From NCBI GenBank assembly GCA_026874595.1, contig CM049306.1, positions 8,798,519-8,862,518 of the forward strand: a stretch of DNA of 64,000 bases, in the 5' to 3' direction. A model generated the notes under the pieces. The model searched no databases. It was not told where the DNA came from and was given only the letters and a program-made list of their open reading frames with translations. The DNA comes from Sipunculus nudus. Its lineage: Eukaryota; Annelida; Sipuncula; Golfingiida; Sipunculidae. The first letter of the stretch is position 1. Every line of letters begins with the position of its first letter. Positions 22,496-64,000 of this stretch are shown here, in pieces. The translations under genes were made by a program, and so were the position numbers.

Positions 22496-25400
22496 TCAGA
22501 AAAGTTGAAGTAGCATCAGTGTAGTGACTAAAGTCGGAAGAGATAACAAACCGGCAGCTGTAGAACCAGGGAGGTCTGAAATTAAATAAGTTCTAATATC
22601 ATAACTCAGTACTTTACTTTTACTTTAAAATTTAATCAGACTGACATATATTGCTAAAAATCTGTTGTTAGTAAAGGTTGTATGATGGTTTTATATTATT
22701 TGTGGTACATATATTAAATGATGTAATTGCCTTAACTTGTTTAACTTATAAACGTTTAAAACTTTTCCTGGTGTAATGGTACATACCGCCCAAAGAATAT
22801 CATCCAGGTCATCTTCCACATTTAACAAATTACTGGCATTGTACACCTGTAATAGGGGTAGCCACAGTAAACCTGCAACTGCATGTGATTTGTTGGTTTT
22901 GGTTAAGTACCACACCTGGTGCACTGTAATGTAATAATTTAGTAGCTTAAGGGGAGTACACCTATAGATATAACATTTTAGTGCCATACGGGAGTACACC
23001 TGTAATGGTAATATTTAAATGCCCACAGATTACACAACAGTAATACTAGTATTTTAATGCCTCCCGGGGAATACCTGTAATGGTATTAGTTACGTTACAG
23101 TAATAGTTTACTGACTTACAAGCAGGTACTCCTATCAGGGTAGCAGCCAGACCACACTGTTTGACGAGCTGTTTCTGCAGGGATACAGGCACTTTTATGT
23201 ATCTGTCAAGCCGGCGCAGTAACTCCGGGCAGCCTTTCACGTAACTACCAATACACCCACTTAGGTATTTACGAAGAGTCCTGTAAAATAAAAGTATGCA
23301 TACCGTTTCCATTGTTTATAAGGGTTGTATGACTGATTTTGGTCAGATACAAATTTTTCCATGCAAATGAGTGAGGAATGGTGACCGAATGGTTAACTAA
23401 TGGTTTATTCTACCTACTGAGACTTCATGGTTCATGAATTGATGTAAATTTTATGAGGTGAACTCAGAATAAACTGCCTGACACAGAATAAATGAATGAA
23501 CTGTTCAGGACAGCACTGTGTTTGTAATGTTATTGGGATCCTGTACCGGCAGACTTGCGGGGAGGCCTTTTCTTCGTTTAACTGTCGGATTAGCTTAGGT
23601 CCACATTCTCTGATTTTCCGTACACGGACCGGGAGGTACGGACATCGGTCTGCCTCCTTTTCTGTAAGATAAAGTAATGTTTATAAAGACCATAAGTTTT
23701 TAAGTTCTGGACCAGAGTCATAGTACAAGACAAATTTAATTGAAAGGAATAATGTTATATATCAGGATACGAACCCTTACTCCTAAGTTATCACATGGTA
23801 ACTACTGATATATGATTATGAATTTAGACGTTTCGTGAATGTGATAAATTTAAAAATGAATTTAATAAATGGATAAGGGGACCAGATGTTTTTAGCAAGT
23901 AGTAAAAACTACATTGTGAGAAATGTTGCTGCGCCAGCAACTGAAATTGCTGCATAAGCTCCAGAACTACATAAATATGTTTTGGGAAAAAAACCCGGTT
24001 TATTGATCATAAATTGGCTGGTGACAGTCCTGCAACACAGGTTATCGTATTTCCCCAGCTATCATCAGTACTGTTAGTATAATATTAATAGAATCAGCTT
24101 TGTAAAACACACTCTTTTACATGACTGACTTACGCTGTCGCTGCCCGTCTGGCAGTATTGGTAGCGTCTTCATGCCGCACGCGATGGCCGCTGACGGTCG
24201 AGTCCCCAGCAGAAAGTTTAGCTGAATGTCCAGTCCCACCATGACCTTGACGTAATCTAATGTAGTGTACATCAAGGTCGGACAGCCTGTCAACACCTGT
24301 CGTATACAGGTCTCTATCGTATCGTTAGTTTGTCTGAAAGAAAAAGGAGTACGTGATATTTCGAAAGATATACAAGTCATGAAAATATCAGTTTTGTACG
24401 TTTCAAAAGACACCAGTATTAAATGTGAAATATTCTTGTATACATATATACATGTTTATCAGCCATCTTGAAGCAGGTTTTTTTCTTCAATATTTATATA
24501 CACAATGACCTAGAGTTATCCATAATATCATGTACGAAACTCACGCCTCCCGTGAATAACTTTGATATAAATAATTGATTCTAGCATTAATTGAGAATTG
24601 TGTATATACAAAACAATATATCATAATTAATGTTTTCGCACGGTGATGTAAAACATTTTGAAGCAACTATTTTGATTTTATGCAAAGAAACGAAGAGCTG
24701 CATGCATGGTATTGTGAATGTGTGTGTTCTTACATTATCTAAATACTACAGATTTTTGGTATTTTTTTACACTATAAATACAGAGTATAGTTACAAACTC
24801 ACGCGCAGTATGCCTCAGGATCCGTCCTGTCCAGCAGAATTGCCATATGCACGCGAGGTTTGGTGCATTTTAATAATTCTAAAACTTTGAGACTCAGGTC
24901 CGGGCACGCTGCAATATAGAATTTCGGCATTATTGTTATATTTATTATCGGTATAAAATCTGTATTTGTACTCCAAGAAGAAGTAATGCTACAAGGGATG
25001 GTATTAATAATAGTAGTAGTAGTTGTGTTGTAGTAGTAGCCAGTAGTAGTAGTTGTAGTAGCAAAGTGAAATAATGGTGTGACAGTATAGTTGTAGAGGC
25101 AGTTGAAATGAATCCGTATCTACAGAAGTATGATTAATGATCAAGTATAGCAAGCACGGATTGGAAGCATTATAGTATAATTGTAGTATAGAGTCTTAAC
25201 TTGTATACTCGTAGTGAAGGGCTGGTAGTAGTAGTTTGTTTCCAGTAAGTTTTCCTTTGAATTATCATTTATAAAATTACTGTTCTAAGCAGATCTGATA
25301 AAGAAATATTTAACAAAAGAAGCAATCATTCAATAAAGGAAAAAATCAAGATTTTATTTATGAAGTTAACTTATAGCATACTTAAATAAACTTTTCATAT

Positions 25401-25528
25401 AGTCACATAGGCGGGGAAACAATAAGATGGAAAAGCAAAAGGAGGACGTATTTCTCAGTACAGTTAGTATATTCTCCTGTAGAGTACTGAAATAGACAAC
25501 CCCCTCCCCATATCAACCCCATAAGTGC

Positions 25529-25572
<44 letters not shown>

Positions 25573-27488
25573 ATTATTTTATGATATATATATATATATA
25601 TATGCATCCCCCCCCCATTATTATTTCATTTCGCCAATAATGTGTCATTTTATATACAAACTGTAGAATTTTTTTTTAATTGTACAGCAATTACAGTTAT
25701 CTATAACGTTTTACGTACAGACATTAACGGGATCGAAGAAACCATCCCCGCATATTCCCGCCATCTGTCGCTGAAATAATTCCGGGAAATATTGATGTAT
25801 GTAGATTCGGGATGCCTCGGTAACCATTTTTTCCACAGGGTCCTTCAGCGGGGGACAGCTTCCAACGATACTGGCAGTGCAACCACTCAGAAACTCCCGG
25901 ACTGTCCTGAAACCACGTGAAAATACGGGAAGTGCTAACATATACCTTATTGAAATAAATTTCTTAATCCAAACTCATAAATCACCTGGCTTTATTATTC
26001 ATGAGGACAGTTCCATGTTATGCTCACAAACCACCTCTTCCCAATTGTAATGAATTATAATAAAAGGAAATAACTTGATTTATTAAAATATATATAACAG
26101 GAAATGCATATGCCTTAAAATGCTGAACATTCACTTTAAAAGAAGTTAAATTAGGAGCGCAACTAACTTGATTTCTTTATTCTGAAGATATAATTGGCTT
26201 AAATACCAGAATTGCAATATGAGCTATTAGTCAAATGGAAAGAAGGTTGTTTCCCCATAGAACCAGCGTTTGAGAAAACCTTGTTTTCTGTGAAGGCTGT
26301 TCAACCGATATAACAAGGGACCTGGTCCAGTACCCCAGTACAGATGTAGGTTGTGTTTTTTACTCACCTACAGTGGCTGCTTGGGTTATGCAGCAATTGA
26401 ATTTCTTGCTGGAATATCTGGAAGTCAGTACGACATCTCTCCAGAACATCCGTGGTCTCGGAGAACTCCGGACAGCCTGACACAGAAAAACACAGCAAGT
26501 CCTTGACGTATCTGGTATAAAAGATGCTTACAGGTATATAAGTGTAAGGGGCCAGTCATATTTTTCAACATTTAATGAAGTCGAAACATTTTCATATATA
26601 TATATATAAATATATATAACTCTGGAGAAAAACAACACTTAATTCACAACAGTCTGTTTCACGGGGTGCGACCCGATCATCAGGTGAATGTGGTTAGAAT
26701 ATATATATATATAAAGATATATATTGCTTTCAAATAAACATCTATAAATATCTGTTATTGGCCACAGTTTTTCTTTCAACTTTATAACAAACATGTAGTT
26801 ATAAGATATGTGATTTCTAATATTAAAAATCCCGCCAGTGCTCAGCAGGTATTGAGATTTAGTTGAGTTTAAAATCTCTTATGTCTTTTTGTGAAAAAAA
26901 GAATCAACTGGAATACATTAAAATAAATATGAATTGATTCCCTAGAGGGAAGAAAAAGAGTGGAGTCGACTTTAAACATATTATCTGCAAAGTCGGAAAG
27001 TTTTCAGCTTTGTTTAATGTTGATAGATACGATCAACCCGTCCATACATGGAGTTTTGGAGTAGTTCCTAGATCTCGGGGGGGAAATCCCAAATACATTC
27101 AAAACATTTAGTTGAAATCCCGAAACTGATTGACGAAGGTTTGTATTCGAGAAAAGACCTTACAAGTTAGTTCTTACGTTAGACTAGTCCACCGAACAAA
27201 GCTAAGTCGGCGGGTAAACCTGCTTAGCAGAAAGGTATATAGGCCTATATCATTGCTGAAAACAGTTTCAAATTAAGAACATTGGCAAGTTTATTAATGC
27301 GTAGGACACCTTCAAGTGGTAATGGTTTAAGGCAGCCTAACGGTAGTTAAGGTTTCCTTGACAACATATTACATAAAAATACTCCTGAGGAAACATTAAA
27401 AAAGAACAGTACCAGAGGGTGCCACCATGGGCATCAGTAACAGCATGAACGCCAGGATCGTCAGCTGTTTGGCAGTGTCAGCGGCCAT
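22496..27488 (-). CDS. Gene A: secreted, six-cysteine three-module protein with predicted GPI anchor
   Basis: Eight exons on the minus strand join without a stop: 27413-27488, 26368-26476, 25719-25906, 24803-24908, 24134-24333, 23547-23661, 23120-23280 and 22496-22575 (1035 bp, 344 residues). Exon 1 encodes a signal peptide (MAADTAKQLTILAFMLLLMP). Three modules follow, each split over two exons with introns in phase 1, 2, 1. Each module has six cysteines in the order C-(10-11)-C-(about 15-18)-C-(about 8)-C-(6)-C-(about 29-33)-C, typically starting with CP, with motifs such as CRTVREFLSGC and CRTLRKYLSGC. The last exon encodes STAAGLLSLPTLVTTLMLLQ then LF and a stop: a small-residue site followed by a hydrophobic tail, as in GPI-anchor signals. 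The likely location is the outer cell surface. I do not recognise the family; the cysteine pattern faintly recalls the nematode T20D4.11-like domain (formerly DUF19), which is only a suggestion. It has three paralogues to the right. Confidence 0.8.
24990..25060. repeat. Interrupted (GTA)n trinucleotide repeat
   Basis: Short GTAGTAGTAGTA runs, interrupted, in the intron of gene A between exons 25719-25906 and 24803-24908. Confidence 0.7.
25528..25605. repeat. (TA)n microsatellite, two tracts
   Basis: Two alternating TA tracts separated by about 20 bp, followed by a poly-C run, in an intron of gene A. Confidence 0.9.
26595..26715. mobile_element. Short interspersed element flanked by TA repeats, copy a
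   Basis: A unit containing GAGAAAAACAACACTTAATT, CAGTCTGTTTCACGGGGTGC and GACCCGATCATC is bounded on both sides by TA microsatellites. A related unit lies at 61.5 kb. Probably a short non-autonomous element that inserts in, or carries, TA repeats. It lies in intron 1 of gene A. Confidence 0.55.
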
Positions 27489-30792: not shown

Positions 30793-33700
30793 ATGAAAAC
30801 CGAGGGATTATTCGTGCGTCTCCTGTTGGTCATGGGGCTGACCTGGGGTGAGTTCTTCCTCTCTATGTAACTTTCTTTACTCTTTATTTACCTTTTGATA
30901 CCATACGCTGAACAAGCGTTATAGTTTTTCTTTATTTGTACTTCATATTATTTTATTCAGGTGTCTAGGTAACATTTAATAAGATCAGTCTGTATCGTAA
31001 ATAGGTGATTTATATATCGGAAGATCGTAAATATTTACTTCTATAATGATGAGCACTATATATATATTCATGATCTCAATGTCAGAGGGTCAGCCGCATA
31101 GAATTTTCACCTTAATTTATTTCCAGGTGAAAAATAATATAATTTTAAGTTAAAAAAAGTTTAGTGGTTCGAATAAATGTAAAAATTGTTTTACGCACGT
31201 TACCAGTAATATGGGAGGAGTGAGTGTTTTCCTTAAAATAGCTTGAATTTATCTGGTGCATCAGTGTATGATCGTAGACACAATATATTATACTAGAGTG
31301 ATCTCAGTAAAAGTCACTAGTGGCCTCTCTAGGCCAGCGATGTTGTGTCTGGTGAAATCCCTTGACGTAAACTTCAAGCAAAGTCTCTAGTGGCCGTGTA
31401 TGATAACATTCAGTTAAACTGTATTCTGCTAACCCTTATGCGACTATTTGGAAAAAACACGGACATTAATATCATTAATATACCATCATCCACCGGCAGT
31501 AAACTAAAAGATTGTTTGTTTTACCAACTTCCTGGACTCTAGATGGCACAGTCCAACCCTTCACCTGAAGAGAAGGAGTCTTGACAAATTAATTCTAAAT
31601 AGTATAATGTATAAGCATCAAGCTTTATTACTAAAATAAAAAAAGGCTACAATGAAATGGAGGATTTTAAATAGGAATAGAAATAAACCTGGATATTAAA
31701 ACTGAATATTTAAACGGAGGCTCAAAATTACAAATGGACATACTTCATAGGAGGAGTTAACAGATATAAGGAATCGCTTATTTTCTTGACAAACACTCGC
31801 TACCACATAGCACATTAATATATGCATATGAGGGTGATGGACATGCATTAGTTATTTTACTAAAATAGTAATAGATGCCTAATCAGGATGGATACACTGT
31901 CCTAATTCCCCAGAACTGCACATATAACAATACACAAATCACCAGATGACTCGCTTTAACTAAAGTTTACGTTTGTTCAAATAAGCTTTACTTGCATAAT
32001 AAGTATTTGATTAGAAAGCTGCTAGTTTTGTATGAAATTACAGATACAAGGCAAAATTGCCAATGGGTCTGCAACAGTTAAGAAAAATTGGGGGAATTGA
32101 TTTTATTCAAAATTTGTCCGAGGATATGATGATATGTATGAGAAGGATGCACATCCTTTTGGGTTATTTACACCATGGTTGCATAACAGACACACGGTAA
32201 AAAATACACTTGACGAAAACGGCCATGTTGACACACAAATGCACATGAAACTTAAAAAAGTAGTTAACGCCACAAAGTTTATTTTTGCTGCCAATTGCCC
32301 AACATACACGTGTATACAACATTCCGTTAGGCTATACCCTGTTGCTGTTGATGAAAGGATGGCATGCGGACGACAGACGACGGACAGACAAAATTCACAG
32401 GTGACCTCAACAGACAATGCTTAATGATGTAGATGGGCAATAGTTATTATAGGTTTTGGTCGACTGATATGAGCCTACTTTAATGAGCCAAAGTAGAAAT
32501 GAAATCTGTAGAAGGATATTTATAGTTTGAATTTATGACAAATATTCATGAGCAGTGTTTTTATTTGAATCTTATAGGGTATATTCATAAAACTAAATGT
32601 CGAATGGTCGGAGAAGAAGATCTATGCAAATATACATGACATTTTGACTTTCCAAATCTAAAGGAAAATAAAGTTTGGTCACTGATTTTAAACATAGATT
32701 TGTAGGTTCCACATCAAAGAGAATGTACAAAGATACCTAACATTACAGTGAACCCTCGAAATTACGACCACCAACAGGACCTCATTAAAGTGGTCGCATT
32801 ATTGAGGTGGTCATCTATATTACAGGCATTTTACCCGAAATAAGTGGTCAACCTCACACAAATTGCAACAAAAGCAAACGCAACTGATTTTGATTCCTTA
32901 GTATGGCCATAAAGTAAGAAAAGAAGTCCTAAGCAATTGTGTGGGGGGAAAGTTTGAAAATCGTCAAATTTGACAAAGTAGAAAATACCTTTTATTTCAC
33001 CATATATGCATCAGCGTTCAAACGGTGTTGTATGAATAATCTCTTGGTTATCGTCCTATAACCTCTTGCTTATTCTTGTTCAAGTAGTTTTGAAATAAAG
33101 TGTATTTCATGAACTATAAGACACTATGGTACAGATATAAAATCAGCAATCTGTGAATTAAAAGGATATCATGAAATGAGCAACACTATCTTAAAATGGC
33201 AACAATAACCAAAGATACATTCCAATTTTTAGTTCAGCCGCTTTTAAGTCATTTGAGCTATAGTTATGATCCATTGTCTGTCATCCGTCCGTCCGTCTGT
33301 CTGTCCGTTTGACTGGCACGTTTTGGAACGATTAGACCGACAAATCCAAAATATGACATACAATTCGATGTCCATAACTTCCCTTACCTCTCCTACCAAG
33401 CCCAAAATTGGGCTAATGCGAATTCGGTCCTTCGAGAATTTAGGGAGAAACCTGTTGTTACACTTCATGACTGCCTAAAATGAAAACCCCTTGTCTGTGT
33501 TTGTTCATATTTATAAACATTTATAAATTTCGGCTATATATTTCCTATGAACGGGCCAAAAATTAGGTCAATATTACATAATTTTTAAAAATTATGGATC
33601 AAAGCATTAATAAGATACCTTATCAAAATATAAAGAAATATATTTTTTTTGTCTTAACATGGTAACTGCTATAGTTGGAGATTTTTTTCAAGTTTACAAC

Positions 33701-36700
33701 TATTTAATCAAGATTTAATTGTATGAAAGAAATTAGATCAACTTTTTGTAAATTCTTAAAATTATTAGCATGAGTGTATAATTAGTAACTTAAATTTTGC
33801 CCAACTTTGACCATGGGCATTTTATTCTAGTAACCACTGCTGATTTGATTTTCACAGCATATACACATAAGGATTTAATCGGTTAAAATATGAAATTTGA
33901 AATCAAAGCTCACAAACAAGGCGAGGTAAAATTTGACGGGGGGGGGGGGGGGGGGCTCTATAGTATTCACTTGCATTCTCAATAATCCCCCCCCCCCCCC
34001 CTAGCTGTCGAAGGTGCACAGTTATTCTCAAATCACTCCCATTACCCCCACAGCAATATACATAAAGTGTAAGGGAATAATTGAATAATTGTTATTGCTA
34101 TCAATAACAATTATATATGATATTTCAAATGTATGAAAATTATAAACTTAAAAAAAAATGATAATATAAAAAGTGAGGAACTAATGCAAACTTTTGTTAA
34201 TCAATTTCCTGCCCAAGGAGAATGGGAAATAATGTGATCAGATTTGTTCGTCTACCTGTTTGTCTGGTGATTTATAAATATTCAGTTATTATGCATCTAC
34301 TGTTTTTCCTGTACGAACTGTTGAATTAAGTTTCATATTCCATATGTAAATGCAGAGATGTTGAAACTCCCACTACTCAGCGCCTCAAAATCCCTCCCCC
34401 ACCATAAGTCCTTGCACCTGTGGACTGGGGACCTTAATTATAAGGCAACTGTATAAAATGGTATTGAAAAAAAGATTTGGATTTAATTAAACAAACGAGC
34501 TGTCAACTACTGAGCTGTCAACAACTTATCAACATGTCAACCACAGATCATGGAAATGGTATAGATCTCATGTTTACAAATTGCTCACATGCTCCAGTTT
34601 CACCATTAGAAAACACATGGTCAGATCACAAAGTATTATTTGCAACAATTTTCTTACTTATCAGTTCAGATCAATCATATCAACCAATATCTAGCTTATA
34701 CTTCCTTTTCCGCTCAGACGTTATCTTTATTATTTTTATATTTTAGATTTTTTTAATCCCCATATCAATAAAATCATGTAGATATGTAATGAGTACATGT
34801 TAAATCAGACGTCATCTTGTCCATTCTTATCACTAAGTGTCTGTTGTCAGTTACGCACAGGGTTTCCAGCAGTCAACTCGGATAAAAAATCTCTGACTTT
34901 TAAATTTAAACTTTATTTATTTAAGATAGCGCCTACTTTTATAAATATTTTTATTCAGTGGCGCTTTACAAAAGTACTAAATTATATTATGACACAAGAG
35001 TTAAAATTTAATAAAAATCTAAGTCGAAAAAAGGTACGTTTTCAATTTTCTTTTAAAGTCGTCAATATTTTCGCTTCATTTAACATCATTAGAAAGTTCA
35101 ATCCAAAGAAATCGTCCAAATGTTGAAAATACCCGATCAGCAAACGTTTTGTTAGACTATTCCCGGACTTTCAGCTGGTTTTCTTGGAAAAAAATAAGCC
35201 ACCAAATTCAATTTCTGCTCAAAAACGTCAGTCTACTGCAAACATACATGTATATATTTTGTGTATCCATGCTGTGCGTTGTCAACTTACATGTGTTTAC
35301 AATAATCTATAGGAAATAAGATTTTACCTACAGACACAACAAAATTTTAATTAAAAGGAAAATAAAAATGTAGTATGAAATTATTGAATGCTGGCTCATG
35401 ACATGAAAAAAAAGCTTCCTACCTGATAATCAACCACAGTCGCCATAGCCAGGGTACACGCTATGTGATTATTTTTGCACGTGCATCTGATGGTGCTGCA
35501 GTTACTCTGACAGTTTCATCTAATAACCTGTTGAAGCGTTTCAAAAGCAGGCGACTCGTCATTTGACATAAACCAAACCAATCGTGACTGTTTTAGTATA
35601 CTTTCTAACAACCTCTACCTGGCGAGAACAATTCCGTGTTAACCCAGCATATCTGTCAAGCCCTCTTCATGTTTGTTGAAAATCTAATTACTACAATATT
35701 ATTGCAACAGGTTAGGTGAGCGCTGCACATTACCAAATTAGGGTTACCTGCTCAATATAAATGCCAACTGAGTCGTGCTACAACCCCCACCCCTACCGCA
35801 CCCATGCTTCAGACCGTTTCCACATCGACCCCCACATATGAGTCTTGGGAATTTTTAAATTAACAAATAAAGACCAGAATTGGATTCTGCGACCCCCCCA
35901 AAAAACCCTGAAAATGTCGTATTACATATTTATACCCTTTTGATTAATTAAATTTGATGGATTCTAGGCCTTCTTGCGGCCATTTTGGATATTCCCAAAT
36001 TATACTACTTTCCCCCAGGAGAATATCTTAGGACTTTTTATATGTTCCAAAGGATACTTTCTGGGATACAAAACAAATGAGATAGCTTTTGTTGCAATTT
36101 GTGTGAGGTCATGTTACAAAATGACTGTACTACTAAGCGAGCGAGGTCTGATATGAATGCGACGATTCTCTTAACAAATGTTACGAGATTTTTTTCCCGA
36201 GGAAAACAACGGGATATATTAAAGCAATATGAAATTCATGGATGGTTACTTAAAACATGGGTATTTGACACTAAAGGTTTATTTAATGTTGAGAGATCTA
36301 GGAAGTCACTGTGTATATTAGAATTAATTTAAAATTTGACAGGTTTACTGTCGATATGTTATGTGACTGTCCCTCTAACCCAAGGCTGACTTATTTTAAT
36401 CAAAGGCTGCCCAGAACAAGAGAAGAGAAGAGTGAAAGACTGCAGAAAAACCTTTATGAAGGAGGTCGGCAAGTTCAGAAACTTAGATAGACAGTGTCAG
36501 TGAGTACTATACACCCTGTTTACCCACCAAAAACCGTTTTGATTTAATTCCTACCTAACTTGTTAAGAAACCTGCAGAAACCGGTTTCAAAATGCTTTGG
36601 CTGTCTCAAACTGTCCTTTATAGAGAATACTTAATAATTTTGAAGAATTCGTTTGAAAGTTTTTAAGGTGTGGGAACAGGGAATGATATTGAATAAAACC

Positions 36701-39700
36701 ATTTGACAGGGCAGTGCAGAACTATGTAGAAGATTGTGTGAAACCGGCCATCGCATCCTGTCCAGATCTTCGTGAGAAGGTACTCAGCTTTAAACGTGAT
36801 CTCGTCGATATAATAAGGGCAAAGTGTGGACCTGGGTCGCTTGATATCCCATTCCCTACAACACGGACTGAAGTGGCTACATCTCCAATGGGTAGGGGAG
36901 TCTGTCTCATAGTTTCCTGCGACCCCTTATATAAATCATCAAGATTTGATTTGATAGATATACTAAGATTTTAAATTAACGTAGGACATTTTGCGCGCAG
37001 GTGCTGCCATCTGTCACGTGCAACATATACTAATGACCATAATTTTTTATTAATTACGGGAAAGTATTTGTTAACATAGACGTATCAGGTGAAAACTATA
37101 TTGAGATAAATTTGCCTGTATTTTATCTTCGTAGTAACTAGCCACAAAAGGAAAAGTCTTTGCGAAGATATGACTACCTCACATTGTACACATGGCTTCA
37201 CGGAGCAGATTAGAAGCCTTTTAGCAGATGTCCCGCCTCTCCCTCTGGTCCTTCTTGAAAACATCCGAGAATCCTGCAGGTAATTTTTTACTTAACATAC
37301 ACAGTCATAATAGCAATCTTCAATAATGGCGCATACCTATGCAACGTCCATCAACGACTCGCTAATTGTTCTTTACATATATGTACATGCATGGTTTAAT
37401 TACCACTCTTTTCAGGCTTTAATATTTTATTTAGTTTACATTTAATAATTATTTGTTTGACAACTGACCTTCCAATTTTAGTCTTGCGGTCATTTGCACT
37501 AACGATCACACAACCATGTATAAAGTGTAATTGCTGTTGTAAGTGTTCGCTTTGATTTGTCCAGATTCGTCAAGGCTCACGGTGACAACATGACGCAATG
37601 CTTATATAACCTGCATGGCAACTGCCCAGGTACCAACAATACACGAAACACGGAGCGTGTCCTCCAGAAGTACCTCGTTTTGTGTCAAGAAGTCAATGGT
37701 AATTCACAGATTTTACTATTTGCGAACTGTTAGCATATCTACTATAATTAAAATATGTTTACTATTTTGTCGGTTGTTGGGCTGATGTGTATTTGCAAAC
37801 TGTGTTTTACAATTTAACTTGCAACATGTATGTTTAGTCTGCATGTCACGTTCATTGTTTATATGCATCTGTAAAACATCGACAAATGGGTATTTCACGG
37901 ACAGGGTACAACATAAAATGCCATCATGAATCATGCAGTTAAATTTCTATCATTCATGAACTAGATGAGAACATCTGAAAGAAAAACTAAAGTGCCAGCG
38001 CCTCTCCAGATATTAGTCTCTCCAGATGCCTTGTTTAGGTTTCATCAGATACCTGAAGCTCCGAACTACAAACAGCAATAATAGTCGAACTTTCTTACAT
38101 TATTATTGTTACGGAACCTATATAATATCAACAGATCACGTAATCGTGACAAACATAAATTTTGTTACGGAGAATCAGATTCCGCAACACTAGGCAGCGT
38201 GAAATGTCTAGGGGAATGAAAAAAAAGAAGTCAGTGGTTTTTAGCTCAGCTGACTGAAAGTCATCTGAGCTATAGCGATCACTCTTTGTCCGTCGTCCGT
38301 CTGTCCGTTTGTCCGTCTGTCCGTCCGTTAACCAGGCACAAATCGTAACCGCTGAACCTAGATCCTTGTAACTTGGGATTCTGAGAGGTCCATGAAAAAT
38401 CTCCTTGGAAACCAGAAATTAGGTCTCTGTTACCCATATCCTTCGAGCTATGGGGCCCCAAAGTACCCCCCAGAAAAGTAAAAAATTTCATACAAAAACT
38501 TCAATATCTCATTAACTACTTGACTGATGGTCAGGATTTTTGGCATACATATTGATCATGAGATGTTCCATCACTTCCTGCAGACTGGTGGCGCCACCTG
38601 TATTTTTCGATTTTTTACAATTTTTTTTTCTCTATTTTTGAGACCTTTAAAAATGTGAACATCTGTTAACAAGGCACAAATCGTAAAGCCTAGACCTAGA
38701 ATCTTAATTCTTGATTCACTGAGAGGTCCATGAAAAATCTCCTTGGAAACCAGAAATTAGGTCTCTGTTACCCATATCCTTTGAGCTATGGTTCCCCAAA
38801 GTACCCCCAAGAATAGTAAAAAATTTCATACAAAAACTTCAATATCTCAATAACTACAACACTGATGGTCATGATTTTTGGCATACATATTGATCATGAG
38901 ATGTTCCATAAGTTCCTGCAGACTGGTGGCGCCACCTGTATTTTTCGATTTTTTTACAATTTTTTCCTCTATTTTTGAGACGTTTAAAGATGCTGTCATC
39001 TGTTTACGTGGCACAAATCGTAACCGCTGGACCTAGAATCTTCATTCTCGACACACTGAGAAATCTATTAAAAGTCTCCGTGGAAACCATAAATTAGATC
39101 TCTGTTACCCATATCCTTCGAGCTATGGGGCCCCAAAGTACCTCCCAGAAAAGTAAAAATTTCATACAAAAACTTCAATATCTCATTAACTACTTGACTG
39201 ATGGTCATGATTTTTGGCATACGTATTGATCATGAGATGTTTCATCACTTCCTTCGATTTTTTACGAATTTAAAAATGTGAACAGCTGTTCACAGGGCAC
39301 AAATCATAAAGACTGGACCTAGAATCTTCATTCCTGACACACTGAGAGGTCCATAAAAAGTCTGCATGGAAACCTGAAATAAGGTCTCTGTTACCCATAT
39401 CCTTTGAACTATGGGGGCTCCCAATAACCCCCCAGAATAATGGAAAATTTGATAAAAACAAACTACAACATCTCAATAACTACAACACTGATGGTCATGA
39501 TTTTTGGCATACATATTGATCAAGAGGTATTTCATCAGTACCTGCAGACTGGTGGTGCCACCTGTATTTTTTCAAATTTTCACAATTTTTTTTTCTCTAT
39601 TTTCGAGACTTTTCAGGATGTAGTTATCTGTCAACAGGGTACAAATCGTAAGGACTGGACCTAGAATCTTCATTGTTGACACACAGGGAGACCTATGATA

Positions 39701-49250: not shown

Positions 49251-52200
49251 ATGGCCTTCTCCTGGAGGGCGTTCACCTTGACAGTCATGTTGTTTGTTAC
49301 GTTGCTAGGTAAGTTTTTTTCCCAGTATGCTAGCTTTGTGTTCCTATGTGCATATTTTTTTTTGCGCCCGTGACCCTTGCTTAGTTTGCTGAAATGCCCA
49401 TTGAAAATCGATTTGTGGAATGTGCTGCCTCTTTTGATTTTAATAGCCTGAATGTTTAAACATAACAGTACTCTTATCAGTAACAATACCAGACGCAAAT
49501 GCTTGCGGACACGAGGTGCACTTACCACTAGCACAATTTTTAAAAGTGTATTGGAAATATTGATAATTTGCCAGGTGTCGTTCCACCATTAGTTACTCTT
49601 ATTAGCTCAGCTACCTGTAAGTCAGCTAGCTTGAGTGATGGAGGATCAAGTCGGGCCTGGCTGGGGCGGGGGCACATGCGTTTGACACAATGTCAACAAA
49701 CATTGGCCAGGGCGACTGAGGGAGATAGGGCTCCGGCCCGAACCGGCCTTTCTATCATATTATCACTAACCGAACTCGTTTATCCTTGCTTTGAGGGTTT
49801 TACACCTGAATAAACTATCTAGTCCCAACTGAACACGTTATTTTGAATTTCAGTCTATTTCGTTTCTATAAATTTTCCCGTCTACCTACTAACAACGGCC
49901 CCCTGCGGAACCCCCCTCGATACGCCCCTGTGTTGGACATATAAAACTCTCTAAGGTTACCTGAAAATATATCACTTCAGCGTAGGCTGAATTCTCTAAG
50001 TTATGGGGCCTGTTTGTGCACGCAAGAATAATTAAAAAAAAATCATATACAAGATCCAGTAGGCCTATCCCAATAATTAATGCATGGATTTGCCATGATT
50101 GTTTTACGTATTGATCATGGACAGTTTCAACTGCTGCTAATTAAACGGCGCTGCTAAAGATGGGTTGCGCCCCCTTATTTTTCCATTTTCCCGCTTTTTT
50201 CATATTACAACAATGGTGTCAGATTCTAAGCTGTGTTATCCTTATCCAGTGTCCTGAAATCTGTTGTCCTCATTGATAAAAATTGTTTCATTAATTGCTT
50301 GAGATTTTTTTCTTATTTTTTATGCATTTTGTCATCTTCTTTTTGAGACCATCAAATGACAGCAATCATATCAGTCTCCCAGCGGTGCTTTTGTTTACAC
50401 CTCTGAAACCGAGTATGTTAAATGGCCATTACCAGTTTTACCAGGTGAGAAGAACTGGTACGTGTTACCACCTGTATTTGTTTTGTGTTTTTCACACATT
50501 TTACTTGTATTTTTTAATCTGTCAGATTACAGGAATGGTGCCAGTTTCTAAACTCTGAAAGTTGAATGAATTACAGGGCACAAATTATAATCACTGGATA
50601 TCCATATGAGTGATTAGGTCACCATGACCTCATCAGCATAAATGAGATCCTTATGTATTGTGATCTCGGGCCAACCAGTGCCAAACAGACAAATGTTTCA
50701 CAATCGTATAGACAATGCCAACACATGAGTCACCTTAGCGTGATTACCCATGGTCACTTTGTTTTTCTGTAATTAGCGATTTAAGTTCCAGCTGCAGGGT
50801 TCTTAAATAAACCTTACATACATACTTTGATTGATTCTGGAATATTATTATTATTACTTGTATTATAATATTATTGCACATTGTGTGTTAAATGATCTGT
50901 CGTTGTGTTCAGGTTTAAATAGACAGCAATGCCGAATGTGTCAAGCTACCTTAGTTACAAGAAAAAAACGTAGCTATGAAAATAAGATACAAATATATCA
51001 ACTTATTAATAACGAAAGATACTTCTCTCTTTGTCGACAAATACAAACCGAACACCGAGTGCCTACCATCGTCGACAGGTGTTGCTAGTGTGATAATTTA
51101 GCTCTATTCTGGCTCAGTAACATGCTGATATGACGACAACCTGTGTCAACAGTTAAACGTTAAATGATATCAGGCGTCAGATTCCAAGCCTGAGGCTTTT
51201 GCATCTTAACTATGCGACCAAGCTTAGTGAAATTAGTTACTCTCCTTGGCTTCAGATCTACCGAGCTCCATGATTATTTACAAAATCCAATTTGATACCG
51301 TCGATACCTTTGAATTTTAATCATATGTTCAAGAGATAAAGTTGCTCATTTGATTTAATAACGGAAGCTTCCTCAGAAGTTAATTAACTGTACAAAGTGT
51401 AATTTTGTAGGTGGTGATGTCAGTGCTAAGTCGAGACGAAATGTCAGCCCTCAATGTGCTTCACCTCGGAAGCTTCTGGAAATTGCTTCTGGCGAAATGC
51501 GTCACAAATGCAGGTAATGACCAAAGTAATCTTCACTTTGCTGGTCCCAATGTATTCTAAAATAAATTAAGTCATAGGCCTAAACTGTTGAGGACTGTGA
51601 TATAGACATGATATATATTCCAAACAATTAATTCCAACTAAGGACAAAATATTTGTTTATAATAATTTATATTGTTGTTTTTTTTTTAATAAATGGATCG
51701 AACAAACTCTCCTGTTTGAATAACATATCCATATGTTCTATGAATAAATATGATTGTATGGATTTCGCAGGGCCATGTCTTTTCGCCTTCCGATTTTTAT
51801 ATTTCTTTAAGATTTACATTCGAAAGGCAAACGTACATAATAAACATTGGGAGCTTATTCAATCATAGCTTATGTTCATTTATACAAAATATTAAAATGG
51901 AAAATTACGTATACATATTCTAATTATCGAGCTTGGAAATACATTTAAAACAAAACATTACCTTGCGTTTACGTTATTGTAGTCGGAATATTCATGAATA
52001 TTAAACTTTGCCACTTACAGCCACCAGGATTAAATCGTAATTTAGTACAGTAATATCTCGCTGTGGGTTTAAACGTAGATGCTTTCGTGTCAGTTTTAAG
52101 ACTTTCTGTGCGACTATGTCTCTAGTAAAGGTTTACAAGTTCGGAGATGTATTGCCTCGTGTCATTCACAGAAGAACTGAAGAGAAACCTTCTCCTGTTT

Positions 52201-55200
52201 GAAAAATAATTTTTAATTTTTCTATTACCATCTGTGTTTTCACGGACAGAAAGATCGAGAACTTCATCGTGTATTGCCTGCGTCCGAATCTTGAACAGCG
52301 TCCTGCGATGAGGTCGCAACTTGAAACATTTGTGGAGAGGCTGGACAAGAAAGCCAGTGTGAGGTGTGGGATGAACGTGATGGAGCTGCTGAATCCACCT
52401 GTGTATTCGACCACCGGCTCCCATAAATATCACGCCACAACCCCTGGGCTGCCAATGGAAGGTAATTCACAAAGTTGTATAAACAATTAACTCTGAGACA
52501 TTAGGTAAAAAAGAAAGACGGACGCAAGACGTTCCATAAAGAAAGGTAAAATATACATATCTATAAACAAATGTTGTAATGTTAGTATGTGTAGTTAAAT
52601 ATTCAGGGGGAATTTAAAACAAATCGGGTATGTGTTAAGTGGTAAGTCTATATTGTTTTAAAATAACTTGTCGGTCACGCATTGTGACGGAAAAGATGCA
52701 TATGATTAAAACGCCATAATGAAAGTCGCTTAATTAGTAAAGAAAAATCTCTGTCCTTATACCAGAAGTTGCAAGTATCAATACGTTACATGTCAGTTGT
52801 GAAAACATGGTTGTACATGCAGTTAAACTGTCAATGAACGCGTACCCGCCTGGCTGAGGCAAAAATGGCCAACTTACGCCTGGTCTAAAGCGTTCTCTCG
52901 GTATAAACAAGTTTATTCAATAATCTCTTTGGTATGAATGACTGGGTTTATCTTCCTGGGAAGCCAGGTTTTCCTACAAAATAATAAAATACGTAAACAC
53001 GACAGTCTACTTATTAGGGTTTATTTCCATGAAAACTCGACATAACTGTATATCGGTCGTCCTTTGTTTACGCAGAAATTACGCTGGCGGGCCATGAATG
53101 CGGAGATCAAATTTTGCGGCAGTGTTTACCTTCATTGGAGACTACGACTACTGGTACCTGGGGAGAGTCTCACGAACTTGCCTCCCTAAAATACCTTGTC
53201 CGTCTGTGCAGGTAATGATTATCAATCACTGAGGAATTATGCCGTTACTCTTAATATATAAAATCTTACCTGGACGACTCTTGTACCAATGTATGTTTGG
53301 ATATGTATGCCGGCCTGCAAAAAAAATAAAATTCTTTGCATTCTTTTGGTTAACGGATGAAACACAGCAAAACAGAAAGAGACCACGACCTTCGAAACCA
53401 CCAAAAGTTGTTGAGTCAAGATTAATTGGTTTATTCTGTGAGTCTTTATCAATATTCATAAATTACATACTTTTTTAATTATGTAGTGTATGTTACTTAA
53501 TCATAGAGCGTAAAACTTCCTTGTGATGACCACCCATGTAAGAGATCATCTTCATCACAACCATTTTATATGTTGTTGTTGTCAGCAATTTTTTTAGTGT
53601 CTAGCAGGAAAACTCATTAACATTAACAGTACATCGGGCCCAGAGATGGAGCGGGATTTACTGTACTGTTTTTAGTGTCAGCGGGATTAACTGTACTGTT
53701 TTTAGTGTCAGCGGGATTAACTGTACTATTTTTAGTGTCAGCGGGATTTACTGTATTGTTTTTAGTGTCAGCGGGATTATCGGTACTGTTTTTAGTGTCA
53801 GCGGGATTAACTGTACTGTTTTTAGTGTCAGCGGGATAACCTGTACTGTTTTAAGTGTCAGCGGGATTAACTGTACTGTTTTTAGTGTCAGCGGGATTTG
53901 CTGTATTGTTTTTAGTGTCAGCGTGATTTACTGTACTGTTTCTAGTGTCAGTGGGATTAACTGTATTGTTTTTAGTGTCAGTGGGATTAACTATACTGTT
54001 TTTAGTGTCAGTGGGATTAACTATACTGTTTTTAGTGTCAGCGGGATTAACTGTACTGTTTTTAGTGTCAGCGGGATAACCTGTACTGTTTTAAGTGTCA
54101 GCGGGATTAACTGTACTGTTTTTAGTGTCAGCGGGATTAACTGTACTGTTTTTAGTGTCAGCGGGATTTGCTGTATTGTTTTTAGTGTCAGCGTGATTTA
54201 CTGTACTGTTTTTAGTGTCAGTGGGATTAACTGTATTGTTTTTAGTGTCAGTGGGATTAACTATACTGTTTTTAGTGTCAGTGGGATTAACTGTACTGTT
54301 TTTAGTGTCAGCGGGAAAAACTGTGCTGTTTTTAGTGTCAGCGGGATTATCTGTACTGTTTTTAGTGACAGGGGGATTATCTGTACTGTTTTTAGTGTCA
54401 GCGGGATTTACTGTACTGTTTTAGTGTCAGCGGGATTAACTGTACTGTTTTAGTGTCAGCGGGATTAACTGTACTGTTTTTAGTGTCAGTGGGATTAACT
54501 GTACTGTTTTTAGTGTCAGCGGGATTAACTGTACTGTTTTTAGTGTCAGCGGGATTATCGGTACTGTTTTTAATGTCAGCGGGATTAACTGTACTGTTTT
54601 TAGTGTCAGCGGGATTACTTTAAAGGCTTTTCACGGCGTGTCATTGACGGATTAGTTCTAGTATAGTTTTATTCATCCATTTATTTATGTTGATCTAGAA
54701 ACGGATGATTTCAAGTGGATTTCCATCCAGTGGATTCCCATCCCTGTTATCGCCCCACGTATATATCCTTCCCGAAACGATGATTTTTTTTTTGGTCGGT
54801 CTTTGTACAATGGCTGTAAGAATACACTCTCTACACCACCTGCCCGGGTTCGAATCCCACAACACCTTATTTGTCCGGAATCACTTCCTTAATTTTCGGT
54901 AATAAGGCTCATATACATAGCACTGGATTACTTTGTGCCTTCTAAATCACCATCTATTTAATAATCGTGTAATCGTTTTTCCCCAGACTGGATGGTAGCA
55001 TGACTAACACCACCTGGTGTGTACATTATAAACTAAAATATTGTCCTGACCCGGCTGATGGTGACAAAACAATGACGCTGATCGAGCAACTGGTTTTGTT
55101 TTGTCAGGAGAATAACGGTATGTGTATATATGATATTTTCAAGTGAAGAAAGTGTTATCAGGCCATTTTGAAATTATTATTATTTTTGTCACCTTATTTA

Positions 55201-58200
55201 TCTCTTGATATTCGGTAATACATAAATCTTCCTTAAGAAGCTCAAAAGCAGATCAAAGGTTTTTGAGTGGAGAGTTTAGTTTCCTTTAATTTTGGTAAAC
55301 CAAGATTGCTTATTTATGTATGTGTTTCTGTATGCTTATCCTGTGATCAGATGTGTAAAAATTTTAATAACTTAAATCAAACCTTTTTAGCTCAGGTAAA
55401 CGTAAGACATCTGGGCTATGGCGATCACCCTTTGTCTGTCGTCCGCCCGTCTGTCCATCCGTTAACGAGGCACATATCGTGACAGCTTGACCAAGAAATT
55501 TCTTACTTAATATCCAGGTAGATCCTCGGTGAATATCCTTGCATATCATCAAAATATCCTGCGAGTTACGCGCGTCTTTGTGTGCACTTAGAAATTCTTG
55601 TGTTAGTGTTATTGGCTGTAATACAAATTTTTTTTCACTCAATCCAAATAATGAAACATTACATGCATCATCTGCACATATATCATTGTTACCCTCATGA
55701 AGGTAAAGGAAATCAAGGTTGATTTGTCATAATAGGAGCCGAGCAAACAAATTCTATATATTGTGTGATTGAAGATTGAAAGAATTAACATGCATCATTT
55801 ACACCTATGTATCTATCACCATGGAAAATTTGAAGATAATCAATTCCATAAATTCTTCACTAATGACATTATAAGTTGATAGATTTTTTTCAGGGTCAGA
55901 GATCAGCTGAGCATCGTGACCCCTGGGTCACTTGTTATGATATTATTTTCTGTAAAATGAACCACCTGTTACATGTAAGATAAACATAGCTCAACAAGAT
56001 TCTGCACTAACATGTTTCTTTAGTATATTCGCTAATATGTATATTTTGCCTCTAAGCATGCGACAGGATGAGTCAATTGAGGGATAAAGCAAGGAATTGT
56101 TGGAAACACGTGACCAGTACAGACCGAGTGACTCCTGGACAGTTGAGCAAGTACACCACCAGAGGACCCAAGTGTCTGTAAGAGCTATTTTCTAACTTTA
56201 TTACACAGCCATTTGGCAATGTTGTGTGTAAGGTCGTAGAATTGTTTATATAAAGATGCGTTTACTTATCTTTTAGTCTAGAAATTTCTTAATTGTTGGC
56301 AAGTCTCTTATGTCATCCAGCATGTTTCCATCAACCGAATTTTTGTACCTTGGTATATAATATGAAAATAAAATGTTTCACTCCTATTTGTTCTTAATAA
56401 AAATATGACCAACATATATTGCATCAAGACACATCTTATCCTACTTACTTGGACATGCAGGTATATCAAATTGCTGCTACACTCTCCTGAGTTATAAGTG
56501 ATTAAAGCATCCCCGTATTAAACTTTAATTTCGTATCTTCTATCAGACAGCTGCACATGTTCCATGGTAATTTTCGTCTTGTTAAATACACCGTTTATAA
56601 TTAATAAGCTAATATCTCAACCTATATAGGTATAGATATTTATATTTTTGCATTCTTTTTCATCATTTTCATATCACTCTGTCTTTTTTTAATCCAATTT
56701 TGTTGTACCTTATTATCGTCTCATTACTTTGACCCAGTTTCAGTGACCTTGACCTATTTTTCAAGGTGAAATGGCTCAGAAAGTGCGATTTTTCCTTTAT
56801 ATTGCGATCTATCATGATTACAGACAAATGGACAAAAGACTTACTGCCAAATCTGATTCCTAACATTTATATTGCGACATATTTGAATTTATTAACGCGG
56901 AGACATACGAGGTAGGTGACTAAGAATAGTTCAGTGAAGCTACGACAGTTGAACTTTTATATGTTTCATTCACAAGGTGTGGGTGCAATGGCAAGTTTGG
57001 TAGCAATATTTTTAATAGTTTTTTTCATTAAATGCAAATAACGAAAATGGGACGTCACCATTTTCAACGCATCTGTTAAACAGAACTAGAATTCTTACTG
57101 TAGTGTTACATAATACAAACAATTGGGCCAATAAAGCCAAAGATCAAAGTCGCAATAGAGGTCTGCACATCGATAAATATGTGAACGTGCAAGTTCTTTT
57201 AAGTATCAAACAAACTGCCTGAACACATACATACCTACACTCTGAACAAAAGGAATAAGTCCTGTGTTTTTAAAAACAATAATAAATATTAAAAAAAAGT
57301 TACTTACATTCTCTGGAGAAGCGCTCCCTTTACACCAACAATAAATACAATCACATAAATACACAAAGGCAAATCATGACGACAAACTGCAAAGCACAGC
57401 GCACAGACTATTCTTTCTGAGCGTTGAATCACATTCTCTCACAGCTATTATCTCCTGGAATCATCCAGACCTAGTACCAGAAAAAGCTTCCACACAGCAA
57501 TATCCTGTACCTCAACGGTAATGCGTATATATAAAGTCCTTAGTCTGTTCCTGGAAGCGCACACAATAAGTATCAATCCGCCAGATTACCAGTCCGTTGG
57601 CAAAATGCGTTATTTGCTCTGTTGTCCTTTACAGAAAAATCACTTGTGGCTTCCTAAGACACCGACCATCAACGCTAGTAGACATCACGTCTCAGTTGTC
57701 TCCACTGTATATATGCAGACCGGCCCGGGACTGCTGAAAGTTTCGTCGGTCTATACCTCACCGGTACGCTGAAACGGACCCTTCCCCCGAAAAATTCCCA
57801 ATCCACTCCCTATAAATGCTTGCTGACGTCACAACTCCCGATTGTCTTTCGGCTAATCATTACTCCAAATTACGCCGACCGTCAATCACTGCGCAAATAT
57901 TAATAAGGAAACGCCTGTAGTAGCAATGGGTGAGAAAATCTAACTTTCACAGATGCACTTCCTTTGAAATCTACCACAAACACTAGTGATCGCCAAAACA
58001 GAGGCGGCTCAATCTAAAGTAAACCGTCTTGAAATGAACAGCAGAAGGGACACGTGTGCTATCTAACAACTAAAATGCCCTGAAATTAACATCTAAAGAG
58101 ACATGTGTGTGTTTTATCCTACTGTCTCACGCTATTATCTTAACATGATACTTCATATTAATGCACAGTAAATTATCAAAACAATCATCTGGCTATTTTC

Positions 58201-59394
58201 CCTACTAGAATATGTAACACAAAACCTAGGTCACAGCTCTTTGGTGACAAGGTCAAAATGTCAAATGTAGATGTCCATTTCTCATGAACCACTTAAGATA
58301 TTAAGATTATACAATGATTGTCAGTTAACAATGATAATTCGCTGTTACTATTATCAAGTTTTAATAACCATCAGCAGTCTGAAGGATACGTCACTTCCGG
58401 TTAATGCTGTTGAAAACCCAGAACTTTTTAATTCTATCAAAAAACGTCTTTTAAAAACGTTAAAGTGCAGTGCAAAGTTTGGTTATATCTTTATTAATTA
58501 TAAATAAATTACAAAATGTCGAAAATGAAACGTCAGCACTCTTAGCTTATCTGTAAAAACTCAAGAAGGAACGACCTAATTTCATTTCTGTTTTACAGGT
58601 CTATATATCCTCCCAAAAAGAGATGGATATAGAGTTAGATCAGTGGGATTATTGGAAAGCCGGGGATGGGGCGGGAGTTAAGGGAAAGGTGGAGATCCGT
58701 GACTGTCTTATGACAGTTACAAGAAGTATAGTTAAATATTATTTAAAAAAATTAAGGAACATTTTTTTTAATTTTCCACAGAATGCTTTCCAGTGTAGTT
58801 GAGTGTATCGATGACTCTCTCCAGCCCTGCCCGGGCCTGCGTCAGGCTTACCGACGAGTTGTGAATAATACCAACAAAATCAAAACCCAGTGTCCGGTAT
58901 TTGCCATGCGCAAAGAAAGTAAGTAATGCAGTAAGCCATCACGGAATGTGTGCCTTAAAGTCTTCACGTACGTTCAAGCTGTGTATCATAATATATGGAA
59001 TCATTCAATGAAATGATCTCCTTATTAAGAACGATATTCTAATACATATGCATATACCTGCATGTTGTGTAATATAATGCATAATATGAGCGATCTTTCA
59101 CCGCTAAATGTTCATATGAAATTCCTAAATCTGTTTCTATTTTAAAACTAAGAAACAATTTAGTGAGAATCGCCAAATCAAGAAGTAACATCTGGAGTAA
59201 TATTGGGAATTCTAATTCAAAAGTGTGGGGGTCGATCAGTCCATATAAGGTAATATACCGTCAAGAAAATTGGTTTTTGTCTCATTTTTTATTTTCTAGT
59301 CCAACCTCAGCACTCAGGTAACACCGATCCTCAGTTCTTTCTGACGTTACTTGTTCCAAGCATGCTGTTCCATTACTCTAACTACATCATATGA
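49251..59394 (+). CDS. Gene C: secreted, three-module cysteine-rich protein with predicted GPI anchor
   Basis: Eight exons join in one frame: 49251-49308, 51411-51513, 52250-52461, 53076-53211, 54987-55117, 56057-56177, 58782-58918 and 59300-59394 (993 bp, 330 residues). Intron phases are 1-2-1-2-1-2-1, as in genes A and B. Exon 1 encodes a signal peptide (MAFSWRAFTLTVMLFVTLLG). Module 1 lacks the first cysteine (the CP position) and the fifth (YCLRPNLEQRP instead of C-x6-CP). Modules 2 and 3 have all six, with WCVHYKLKYCPDP and VECIDDSLQPCPGLRQ marking cysteines 4 and 5. The last exon ends FFLTLLVPSMLFHYSNYII, a weaker but plausible GPI-type tail. N-glycosylation sites occur (for example NTTW). 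The family is not recognised; location and topology are inferred from the signal and tail. Intron 4 contains a 30-bp minisatellite, and introns 1 and 5 contain family-1 elements. Confidence 0.78.
49603..50762 (+). mobile_element. Family-1 dispersed element, old copy e
   Basis: Opens TTAGCTCAGCTACCTGTAAGTC and closes near GAGTCACCTTAGCGTGATTA plus CCCATGGTCACTTTG. The inside is strongly diverged, with fragments such as TTGATCATGGACAGTTTCAA and GGGCACAAATTATAATCACT. It lies in intron 1 of gene C. Confidence 0.5.
53650..54625. repeat. 30-bp minisatellite in intron 4 of gene C
   Basis: About 32 copies of TTTTTAGTGTCAGCGGGATT plus AACTGTACTG. Because 30 is divisible by three, the array yields a 176-residue open frame of SVSGINCTVF-type repeats by chance. 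It sits wholly inside an intron and lacks any other coding support. Confidence 0.95.
55389..55937 (+). mobile_element. Family-1 dispersed element, short copy f
   Basis: Opens AGCTCAGGTAAACGTAAGAC followed by ATCTGGGCTATGGCGATCAC and GTCCGCCCGTCTGTCC. It closes with GATCAGCTGAGCATCGTGAC plus CCCTGGGTCACTTGTTA. The body is only about 500 bp, so the internal satellite is nearly absent. It lies in intron 5 of gene C. Confidence 0.6.
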
Positions 59395-61532: not shown

Positions 61533-61534
<2 letters not shown>

Positions 61535-61584
<50 letters not shown>

Positions 61585-62636: not shown

Positions 62637-63921
62637 CTATAACGTCACAACAAGAACCGATCCCGCCAACAGAAACCCAGCGTAAATTCCAAGGTGATTC
62701 GGTGCAGAACTCTCTGAAATACAACATAATATTATCATTGAACTGTTTCAATCCTATGAAAACGTCAAACGATTCTTATTCAATTTTAACTATTTTACTA
62801 AATCTGCCATTGGCCAGTATATTTGCTTTCAGTTTAAGATGTATAATCTGAAACATCAAGGGGTGTCCATCAATTGTTATAGATTGTATATATTAATGCG
62901 TTTATTCTGAAAAAAATACCTGTTAGTGACCGAACCCTGTATCCGAAAATTATCTAGAAAGAATCAACACGTTTTGCAAAAAAAAATTACTAAATTAAAA
63001 AACTAAGCAGAGAAGACGGTCTTGTGACGACATGTTGACATTTGTGAAGGACACACGGGCTGATTGGTTGTTGGTAGTGCTTGATGCTGTAAATATTATA
63101 AATCAAATTTACAGCTAAAAACATCCGATTTGTGTCGTCGTTTTAGTGAGAAACGTTTAGGCAGTCGTGAAGTACACAGTAATCAGTTTGAAGGAATGTT
63201 TCATTCTCCTATGACGTAGTGTCAACATACTTAACGGATGCCTTAGCTTTTCACACCTTAGTAACCGGACTAAAGCTGACAACAGTATTTGTTTTAGGCA
63301 TTCTTTTCCTGATATGAAGTGGGGTTGCTATGGAGAGTACTGAGTTTAAACCTAAACTTTTTCTGCCATGGTTCACAATTCCGTTATACCATGTACAGAC
63401 TGATAACAGTCTCGGGGTTTCCCTTTACGTGTTTTTATATAATCACATTTCTGTAACGGGAGAGATTGTAATAATGTGGTCACAATGTGGTAACCTGTGA
63501 ATCACTTAAACAATTCAATTTCACAACTTAAAATTGGCTGTATTAATTAAGAAGAAAATGACTTACCCAAGAAATCGTAAGTAAACTTAGGACATTGTTG
63601 CCTGATTTTGTCTGCACTTTGTTCTAGTTCATACCGGAAGGACTTCCGGAGTTTTGGGCAGTATTGTAATGAACGGTCTGCGCAGCATATTACTTTTGGC
63701 ATTACCCTAAAAAAAAGAGATATTTCATGAGAGTAACATACAAGCAACCGAAAACATTACTGCATGCAAATGTAAAATGACAACTGCGAGAAACAAAATA
63801 ATTCTAATTGAACTTTAAGGGGAGTACCTTCAGAAAGTAAAAATTATTTATTCTGCTCGATGTTATGACGTACTCTGCAAATTTCAGGAAATTATTTAAA
63901 CGATTTAATATGCAGCCATTG

Positions 63922-63966
<45 letters not shown>

Positions 63967-64000
63967 ACTTACTTGCACATTAAATCTTTATCGTTTTTAT
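62637..64000 (-). CDS. Gene D: 3' end of a fourth paralogue, cut by the window edge
   Basis: Three exons on the minus strand are visible: 63973 to beyond 64000 (partial), 63567-63706 and 62637-62713 (stop TAG). They join with phases 2 and 1, as at the ends of genes A, B and C. The partial exon ends KNDKDLMCK. The middle exon reads VICCADRSLQYCPKLRKSFR and then KIRQQCPKF, aligning closely with RCAERSLQFCPNLRKHFR of gene B and QPCPGLRQAYRR of gene C. It has an additional cysteine next to the fourth conserved one (CC). The final exon ends HLGIYAGFLLAGSVLVVTL, a clear GPI-signal-like tail. The rest of the gene, including any signal peptide and first two modules, lies beyond the right edge. The function is unknown. 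Confidence 0.75.
63927..63964. repeat. (AG)n microsatellite next to a gene D splice donor
   Basis: A pure AG (CT on the coding strand) run of about 37 bp, starting within about 10 bp of the donor of the partial gene D exon, inside the intron. Confidence 0.95.

Follow-up and report, generated by a model that had tools for sequence, protein, structure and literature searches.

What kind of protein is encoded by the four similarly built genes that share one locus in Sipunculus nudus (Annelida, Sipuncula)? The window considered here is a stretch of 64,000 nucleotides from assembly GCA_026874595.1 (contig CM049306.1, positions 8,798,519 to 8,862,518 of the forward strand), corresponding to C1:8798519-8862518 in the searched genome of 1.4265 Gb in 153 contigs. 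Genes A (-), B (+), C (+), and D (-) follow one plan and extend from position 22496, the end of the gene A stop codon, where the interval proposed in an initial annotation begins, to the right end of the window. The analysis confirms that four paralogous genes are clustered in tandem here, with products predicted to reside at the cell surface. From the sequence, we infer an anchor, a fold, a ligand, and a role that would together make these products a family of glycosylphosphatidylinositol (GPI)-anchored, three-domain ligand-binding receptors or co-receptors, a reading with about an even chance of being correct. The type of molecule, a multi-domain, cysteine-rich surface protein of the GPI type, is already familiar; the family itself is without a significant match in the libraries searched.

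Gene plan and paralogy of the cluster

The window contains genes A, B, and C in full, each with eight exons assigned by frame reading and splice-site tests. They share the exon order signal, X, Y, X, Y, X, Y, tail, and their intron phases are the same without exception: 0 to 1 for the signal exon, 1 to 2 for X, 2 to 1 for Y, and 1 to stop for the tail. One continuous frame runs through the eight exons of each gene, with AG acceptors and GT donors. This arrangement of a signal exon, three two-exon modules, and a tail joined by frame-keeping junctions, as described in the initial annotation, holds for all three genes. The predicted proteins are 344 (A), 285 (B), and 330 (C) residues long and contain 18, 15, and 16 cysteines, respectively.

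Profiles of the Y exons connect the four genes. Among 2213 six-frame segments of the window, a profile of the three Y exons of A found the first Y exon of B as its best non-self match (E 0.0012), while the best Y exons of C and D scored E 0.19 and E 8. The B profile ranked the last Y exon of D first (2e-5), followed by C (2.7e-4), and the C profile also placed the last Y exon of D first (3e-7), followed by B (3.7e-4). Gene A was not recovered from these segments by the B or C profile (E about 1). In blastp comparisons, the E-values were 8e-49 for B-D, 1.7e-22 for C-D, 3.6e-12 for B-C, 4e-5 for A-B, 9e-6 for A-D, and 0.085 for A-C, and protein identity among the paralogues was 21-35% (five pairs measured). 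The codon alignment of B and D (268 codons) is identical at 56, 65, and 37% of first, second, and third positions, a pattern with the third position lowest, as in coding DNA; the third position was the least conserved in all five pairs tested. When the A, B, and D proteins were searched against the whole genome, only these four genes were listed at E<1; a single further row, on another contig, had E 7.8. This result is not proof of absence of further copies because only the best candidates are scored.

The part of gene D beyond the window provided an independent test. Y profiles built without any D exon, run against the window plus 100 kb on each side (264 kb), found Y1 of D at E 1e-11 and Y2 at E 1.3e-11; outside the four genes, the lowest E-value of a Y-profile match in this region was 0.14. 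The X profile gave no significant match to D in the same region, where X3 reached E 0.44 and was outranked by an unrelated match at E 0.23. A splice-and-phase search of the intervals separating the Y exons located the X exons, whose order and phases are those of the common plan. On the minus strand and in window scale, D comprises exon 2 (X, 69139-69040), exon 3 (Y1, 68542-68352), exon 4 (X, 65958-65802), and exon 5 (Y2, 64669-64536), the X exons from the splice-and-phase search and the Y exons as profile matches. Two whole exons and 28 bases of a third fall within the window: exon 8, with a hydrophobic GPI-type tail recognized by its composition and the stop codon (62637..62713), exon 7, the Y exon of module 3 and a profile match (63567..63706), and exon 6, the X exon of module 3, from the splice-and-phase search (63973..64000, continuing to window-scale 64072). 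A search for the signal exon up to window-scale 110000 gave a best candidate at 100602-100539, 31 kb upstream, which was not accepted. The proposal that D shares the common plan thus stands for exons 2 to 8, most of which lie outside the window, and its signal exon is not settled. The profiles, the blastp comparisons, and the D exons beyond the window bear out the earlier claim of four paralogous genes.

On the minus strand, gene A begins with a start codon and signal peptide (27413..27488) that ends in phase 1 at the donor GTACTG. Module 1 consists of the X exon at 26368..26476 (C1-C3, phase 1 to 2) and the Y exon at 25719..25906 (C4-C6, phase 2 to 1). The splice and phase model gives exons 4 (X, 24803..24908) and 5 (Y, 24134..24333) for module 2 and exon 6 (X, 23547..23661) for module 3, which is completed by exon 7 (Y, 23120..23280); the stretch nearest to the Pfam family RGM_N spans exons 6 and 7. 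Exon 8 (22496..22575) carries a hydrophobic GPI-type tail and the stop codon, according to the same model and the tail composition.

Gene B lies on the plus strand. Its signal exon (30793..30847) is less secure, being one of 17 listed candidates and 5.5 kb upstream of exon 2. The splice and phase model places module 1 in exons 2 (X, 36406..36499) and 3 (Y, 36710..36891, also a profile match) and module 2 in exons 4 (X, 37135..37279) and 5 (Y, 37565..37698). Module 3 combines a shortened and less certain exon 6 (X, 43341..43419), with a single cysteine remaining after the loss of C2 and C3, and exon 7 (Y, 43576..43673), a profile match that has lost C6. A hydrophobic GPI-type tail and the stop codon follow in exon 8 (44226..44296), again by model and tail composition.

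In gene C, also on the plus strand, the signal peptide is encoded at 49251..49308. Exon 2 (X of module 1, 51411..51513) has lost C1 and is less secure, as it was picked by eye and did not appear in the filtered exon search; in exon 3 (Y, 52250..52461), C5 is replaced by Arg. Module 2 occupies exons 4 (X, 53076..53211) and 5 (Y, 54987..55117), and module 3 exons 6 (X, 56057..56177) and 7 (Y, 58782..58918, also a profile match). All of these assignments fit the splice and phase model. Exon 8 (59300..59394) contains the stop codon and a GPI-type tail, the least hydrophobic of the four.

Tandem repeats lie in and around these genes. A 30-bp array of 32 copies (53650-54617), one frame of which is open for 282 codons, is found in an intron of C, and a 41-bp array of 33 copies (44826-46178) lies between B and C. 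By eye, there also appear to be two families of longer tandem repeats, with units of about 340 bp (339-1175, 7230-8928, and 38381-40592) and about 278 bp (13121-13937, 18890-21118, and 40701-42103). The repeats at 38381-42103 sit in the long intron of B.

Module anatomy and history

A module is composed of an X exon bearing C1-C3 and a Y exon bearing C4-x7-C5 and C6, with the X|Y intron just after C3. The six-cysteine spacing described earlier is found exactly in nine of the twelve modules, D included; C module 1 has four cysteines, B module 3 has three, and D module 3 has seven. Wherever C4 and C5 are both present, in 11 modules, they are spaced as C4-x7-C5. C module 1 lacks C1 as well as C5, and B module 3 lacks C3 as well as C6, and also C2. 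These paired losses hint at disulfides between C1 and C5 and between C3 and C6, which would leave C2 to pair with C4. Such a pairing would be compatible with an up-down-up three-helix bundle.

In a tree of small size, support is 0.94 for a group formed by the position-2 modules from B, C, and D, and 0.92 for a group of their position-3 modules. The position-1 modules join all three modules of A, where the inner support is weak (0.27-0.88). Pairwise scores agree: the A modules reach 13-21 bits against B1 and D1, 3-7 bits against C1, and at most 9 bits against any position-2 or position-3 module. The tree grouping and the module scores therefore suggest that B, C, and D probably descend from an ancestor in which the three modules were already distinct, and that A is probably a separate branch built of three position-1-type modules. 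The four genes would have originated by tandem duplication.

Predicted surface receptors and the main rival

A signal-peptide-like start is present in A, B, and C (less certain in B), and each protein has two to three N-glycosylation sequons. The last 14 residues contain no K, R, D, or E in four of four proteins. The tails look like GPI signals, as initially proposed, with that of C the weakest.

The preferred reading of these products as co-receptors can be laid out in steps. The signal peptide would direct the product into the secretory path, and the C-terminal tail would probably be swapped for a GPI anchor. Each module may fold as a small helical bundle tied by disulfides C1-C5, C2-C4, and C3-C6, and three such modules in a row would form an ectodomain on the cell surface that binds a protein ligand. 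With no cytoplasmic part, signalling would need a membrane partner, as for the GPI-anchored GFR-alpha or RGM co-receptors.

Searches of sequence libraries did not place the family. Pfam was scanned four times with 21 queries in total (the four proteins; ten modules; D and three consensus sequences; two modules and one consensus), with HMMER filters that drop most matches above E 0.1, and no match of A-D exceeded its cut-off. The best E-values were those of DUF5638 (0.0078), CX9C (0.013), DUF1397 (0.03), Defensin_beta_2 (0.044), TPR_IPO5 (0.046), RIN1 (0.059), and RGM_N (0.074), about chance level for so many queries. A PDB sequence search with protein A found no match. The PDB search with a 10-sequence module profile gave one chain (E 0.55) and that with a position-1 profile two chains (E 0.27 and 0.31), none of them meaningful; RGM was not among the PDB profile matches. 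The initial annotation did not recognize the family either, which agrees with these Pfam and PDB results. No description of the family appeared among the matches listed in a literature search. Lophotrochin was rejected as a candidate because it derives from a DUF4476 protein (PMC7441323).

A number of points weigh against the co-receptor reading. No receptor family matched A-D significantly in Pfam or PDB. The tail of C shows weak hydrophobicity (0.93) in its final 14 residues. The disulfide scheme has the thin basis of two modules, and under the proposed pairing B module 3 would have an unpaired C4. The likeness of the modules to RGM is under the Pfam cut-off and within the noise of 21 queries. 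Profile-profile alignment to RGM with hhalign covered 24 columns at E 0.012 (probability 4%) when eight of the twelve modules were selected, and reached E 0.051 (probability 1%) with the full set.

The main rival to the co-receptor reading is that the genes encode surface recognition, immune, or gamete molecules whose divergence is driven by conflict, with modules serving as variable binding faces and not as developmental co-receptors. A recognition, gamete, mucosal, or immune role, as the initial annotation proposed, may be conjectured for a surface family in one locus. That annotation also called the divergence probably fast, which agrees with the identity of 21-35% in five pairs and the lost cysteines. 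Loop lengths vary as well, and nothing beyond the cluster was listed at E<1 in the genome searches with A, B, and D. However, there are only four copies and no large array, A-D have no sign of recent copying, and old paralogues under ordinary constraint would show the same picture. On balance, a recognition or immune function is possible and rather unlikely.

Relation to known families and genomic setting

The next alternative, which we consider doubtful, is that the modules are very diverged members of RGM_N, or of a wider group with GFR-alpha and GAS1, and that the proteins are derived co-receptors of the BMP or GDNF type whose vWD-like domain was lost or never present. RGM_N (PF06535) scored 13.8 bits on A (E 0.074) and 12.9 bits on A module 3 alone (E 0.13), with a cut-off of 24.2; in the same scan as A module 3, the RGM of this genome scored 55 bits. 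RGM_N was singled out because its match lies in the right cysteine register. The human RGMs and the RGM of this genome share C3-x8-C4-x7/8-C5 and an LR-x-Y stretch. In a control with 300 shuffles and the cysteines fixed in place, the RGM profile score of A module 3 (9.4 bits) was reached by 2 shuffles, that of A module 1 (3.7 bits) by 10, and that of C module 3 (6.2 bits) by 16; most of the other modules scored barely above shuffles, and C modules 1 and 2 scored below the shuffle mean. Summed over the 12 modules, the score was 28.6, above the shuffle maximum of 19.8, a figure that overstates the case since the modules are related, which makes the test not independent, and since shuffling destroys the helix pattern. 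When hhalign was run with three RGMs only, the E-values were 0.061 and 0.15.

The RGM N-domain has three helices and three disulfides and binds BMP-family ligands (PMC7354924). The RGM host protein is reported to be GPI-anchored, and the cluster proteins have GPI-type tails. Both kinds of module have six cysteines and C4-x7-C5 (x8 in the RGM of this genome). The C3-C4 distance is 8 in RGM and 7-12 in the cluster, and an LR- or VR-x-Y/F-like stretch follows C3 in A modules 1 and 3 and in D module 1. In contrast, C1 and C2 are separated by x4 in RGM and by x7-12 in the cluster, and C5 lies in CRG in RGM but mostly in CP in the cluster. RGM has one copy of the N-domain and a vWD/RGM_C part, whereas the cluster proteins have three modules and no such part: the C-terminal vWD-like domain (PF06534) gave no row when the full-length A-D proteins were scanned against Pfam, and the tail exon comes directly after module 3. 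The cluster module is also split by a phase-2 intron that the N-domain of the genome's own RGM lacks.

That RGM gene was located at G000:C8:2645314-2645544 (E 2.9e-11 to RGM_N), with its N-domain in one exon that continues in frame into the apparent start of a vWD-like part. It is the first of 12 rows in the genome search with RGM_N and the only one over the cut-off; the cluster is not listed. Read as peptides by eye, none of the other 11 rows has the module plan, and three of them resemble reverse transcriptase. Because of the low scores, the single-exon N-domain of the genome's RGM, and the absence of the cluster from the genome search, A-D are not assigned to RGM, which is a weak lead and serves as a working analogy only.

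In GFR-alpha, a single ectodomain unites three helical, cysteine-rich domains with a GPI anchor. The cluster proteins would resemble GFR-alpha and GAS1 in having three cysteine-rich domains, for which a helical fold is proposed, and a probable GPI anchor. However, the domains of GFR-alpha1 have further cysteines, whereas the cluster modules have six. PF02351 (GDNF/GAS1) gave no row for A-D, and the two rows of its genome search exclude the cluster and sit on another contig. There, at G000:C8:64258285-64258803, two adjacent GDNF/GAS1 matches lie in one open frame of 287 amino acids, likely a GAS1-like or GFR-like gene.

A more specific proposal would join several of these elements. A-D may form an undescribed animal family of three-domain GPI-anchored co-receptors with RGM-N-like bundles and no RGM C-domain, duplicated in one lineage beside a spiralian TALE homeobox array and binding BMP-type or other dimeric ligands. 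This combination is speculative and, as a whole, improbable.

The TALE-type genes are four single-frame genes with the motif WFNNRRNR, 92-98% identical in protein, within 47 kb. One lies in the window (5209-6462) and matches the KN homeobox in Pfam; the others are at window-scale -7154..-5862 (+), -30044..-28752 (-), and -40113..-38824 (-). Together they resemble a tandem array of spiralian SPILE genes that formed recently. Near-identical tandem copies are reported for a limpet, and many A/C-type genes of bivalves are not in tandem (PMC8524836). Elsewhere in the window, an open frame (12227-12481) has a signal-peptide-like stretch ahead of a segment with cysteines and is a possible first exon of a further secreted protein; it had no Pfam match at E 0.01.

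Some of the genes might instead be dying copies, given that B module 3 has lost half its cysteines and contains shortened exons, and that C module 1 has lost two cysteines. Yet the frames selected stay open for 285-344 codons, the splice sites are in place, and third codon positions are the least conserved, leaving this idea with little probability.

T20D4.11-like (PF01579, DUF19) and DUF1397 (PF07165) proteins are secreted and cysteine-rich, as the cluster products would be, and both were leads of the initial annotation. Neither lead survived, since no match of A-D reached either cut-off. For DUF1397, the sub-threshold matches were to protein C (11.9 bits, E 0.15) and to a hand-written module-2 consensus (14.1 bits, E 0.03; cut-off 25.7), and the whole genome gave one row, under the cut-off (E 9.8). 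PF01579 gave no row for any of the 21 Pfam queries. Its whole-genome search found one marginal row away from the cluster (E 0.066), just over the cut-off with its neighbours and with a stop inside; a reading of the surrounding 2 kb showed nothing resembling a gene. The domain matches that would place A-D in the T20D4.11-like, DUF1397, or GFR-alpha/GAS1 families were thus not found, and the already disfavoured membership in the first two is very improbable.

At present, the cluster stands as a good candidate family and not as a demonstrated mechanism. To our knowledge, the known members of the RGM-like signalling class carry one such domain; if the RGM-like reading is true, the cluster would add multi-domain relatives to this class. 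If the gene models hold, the four genes would represent an unrecognized family of surface proteins with a clear modular history, in which one-intron modules and whole genes were duplicated, and with a testable disulfide scheme.

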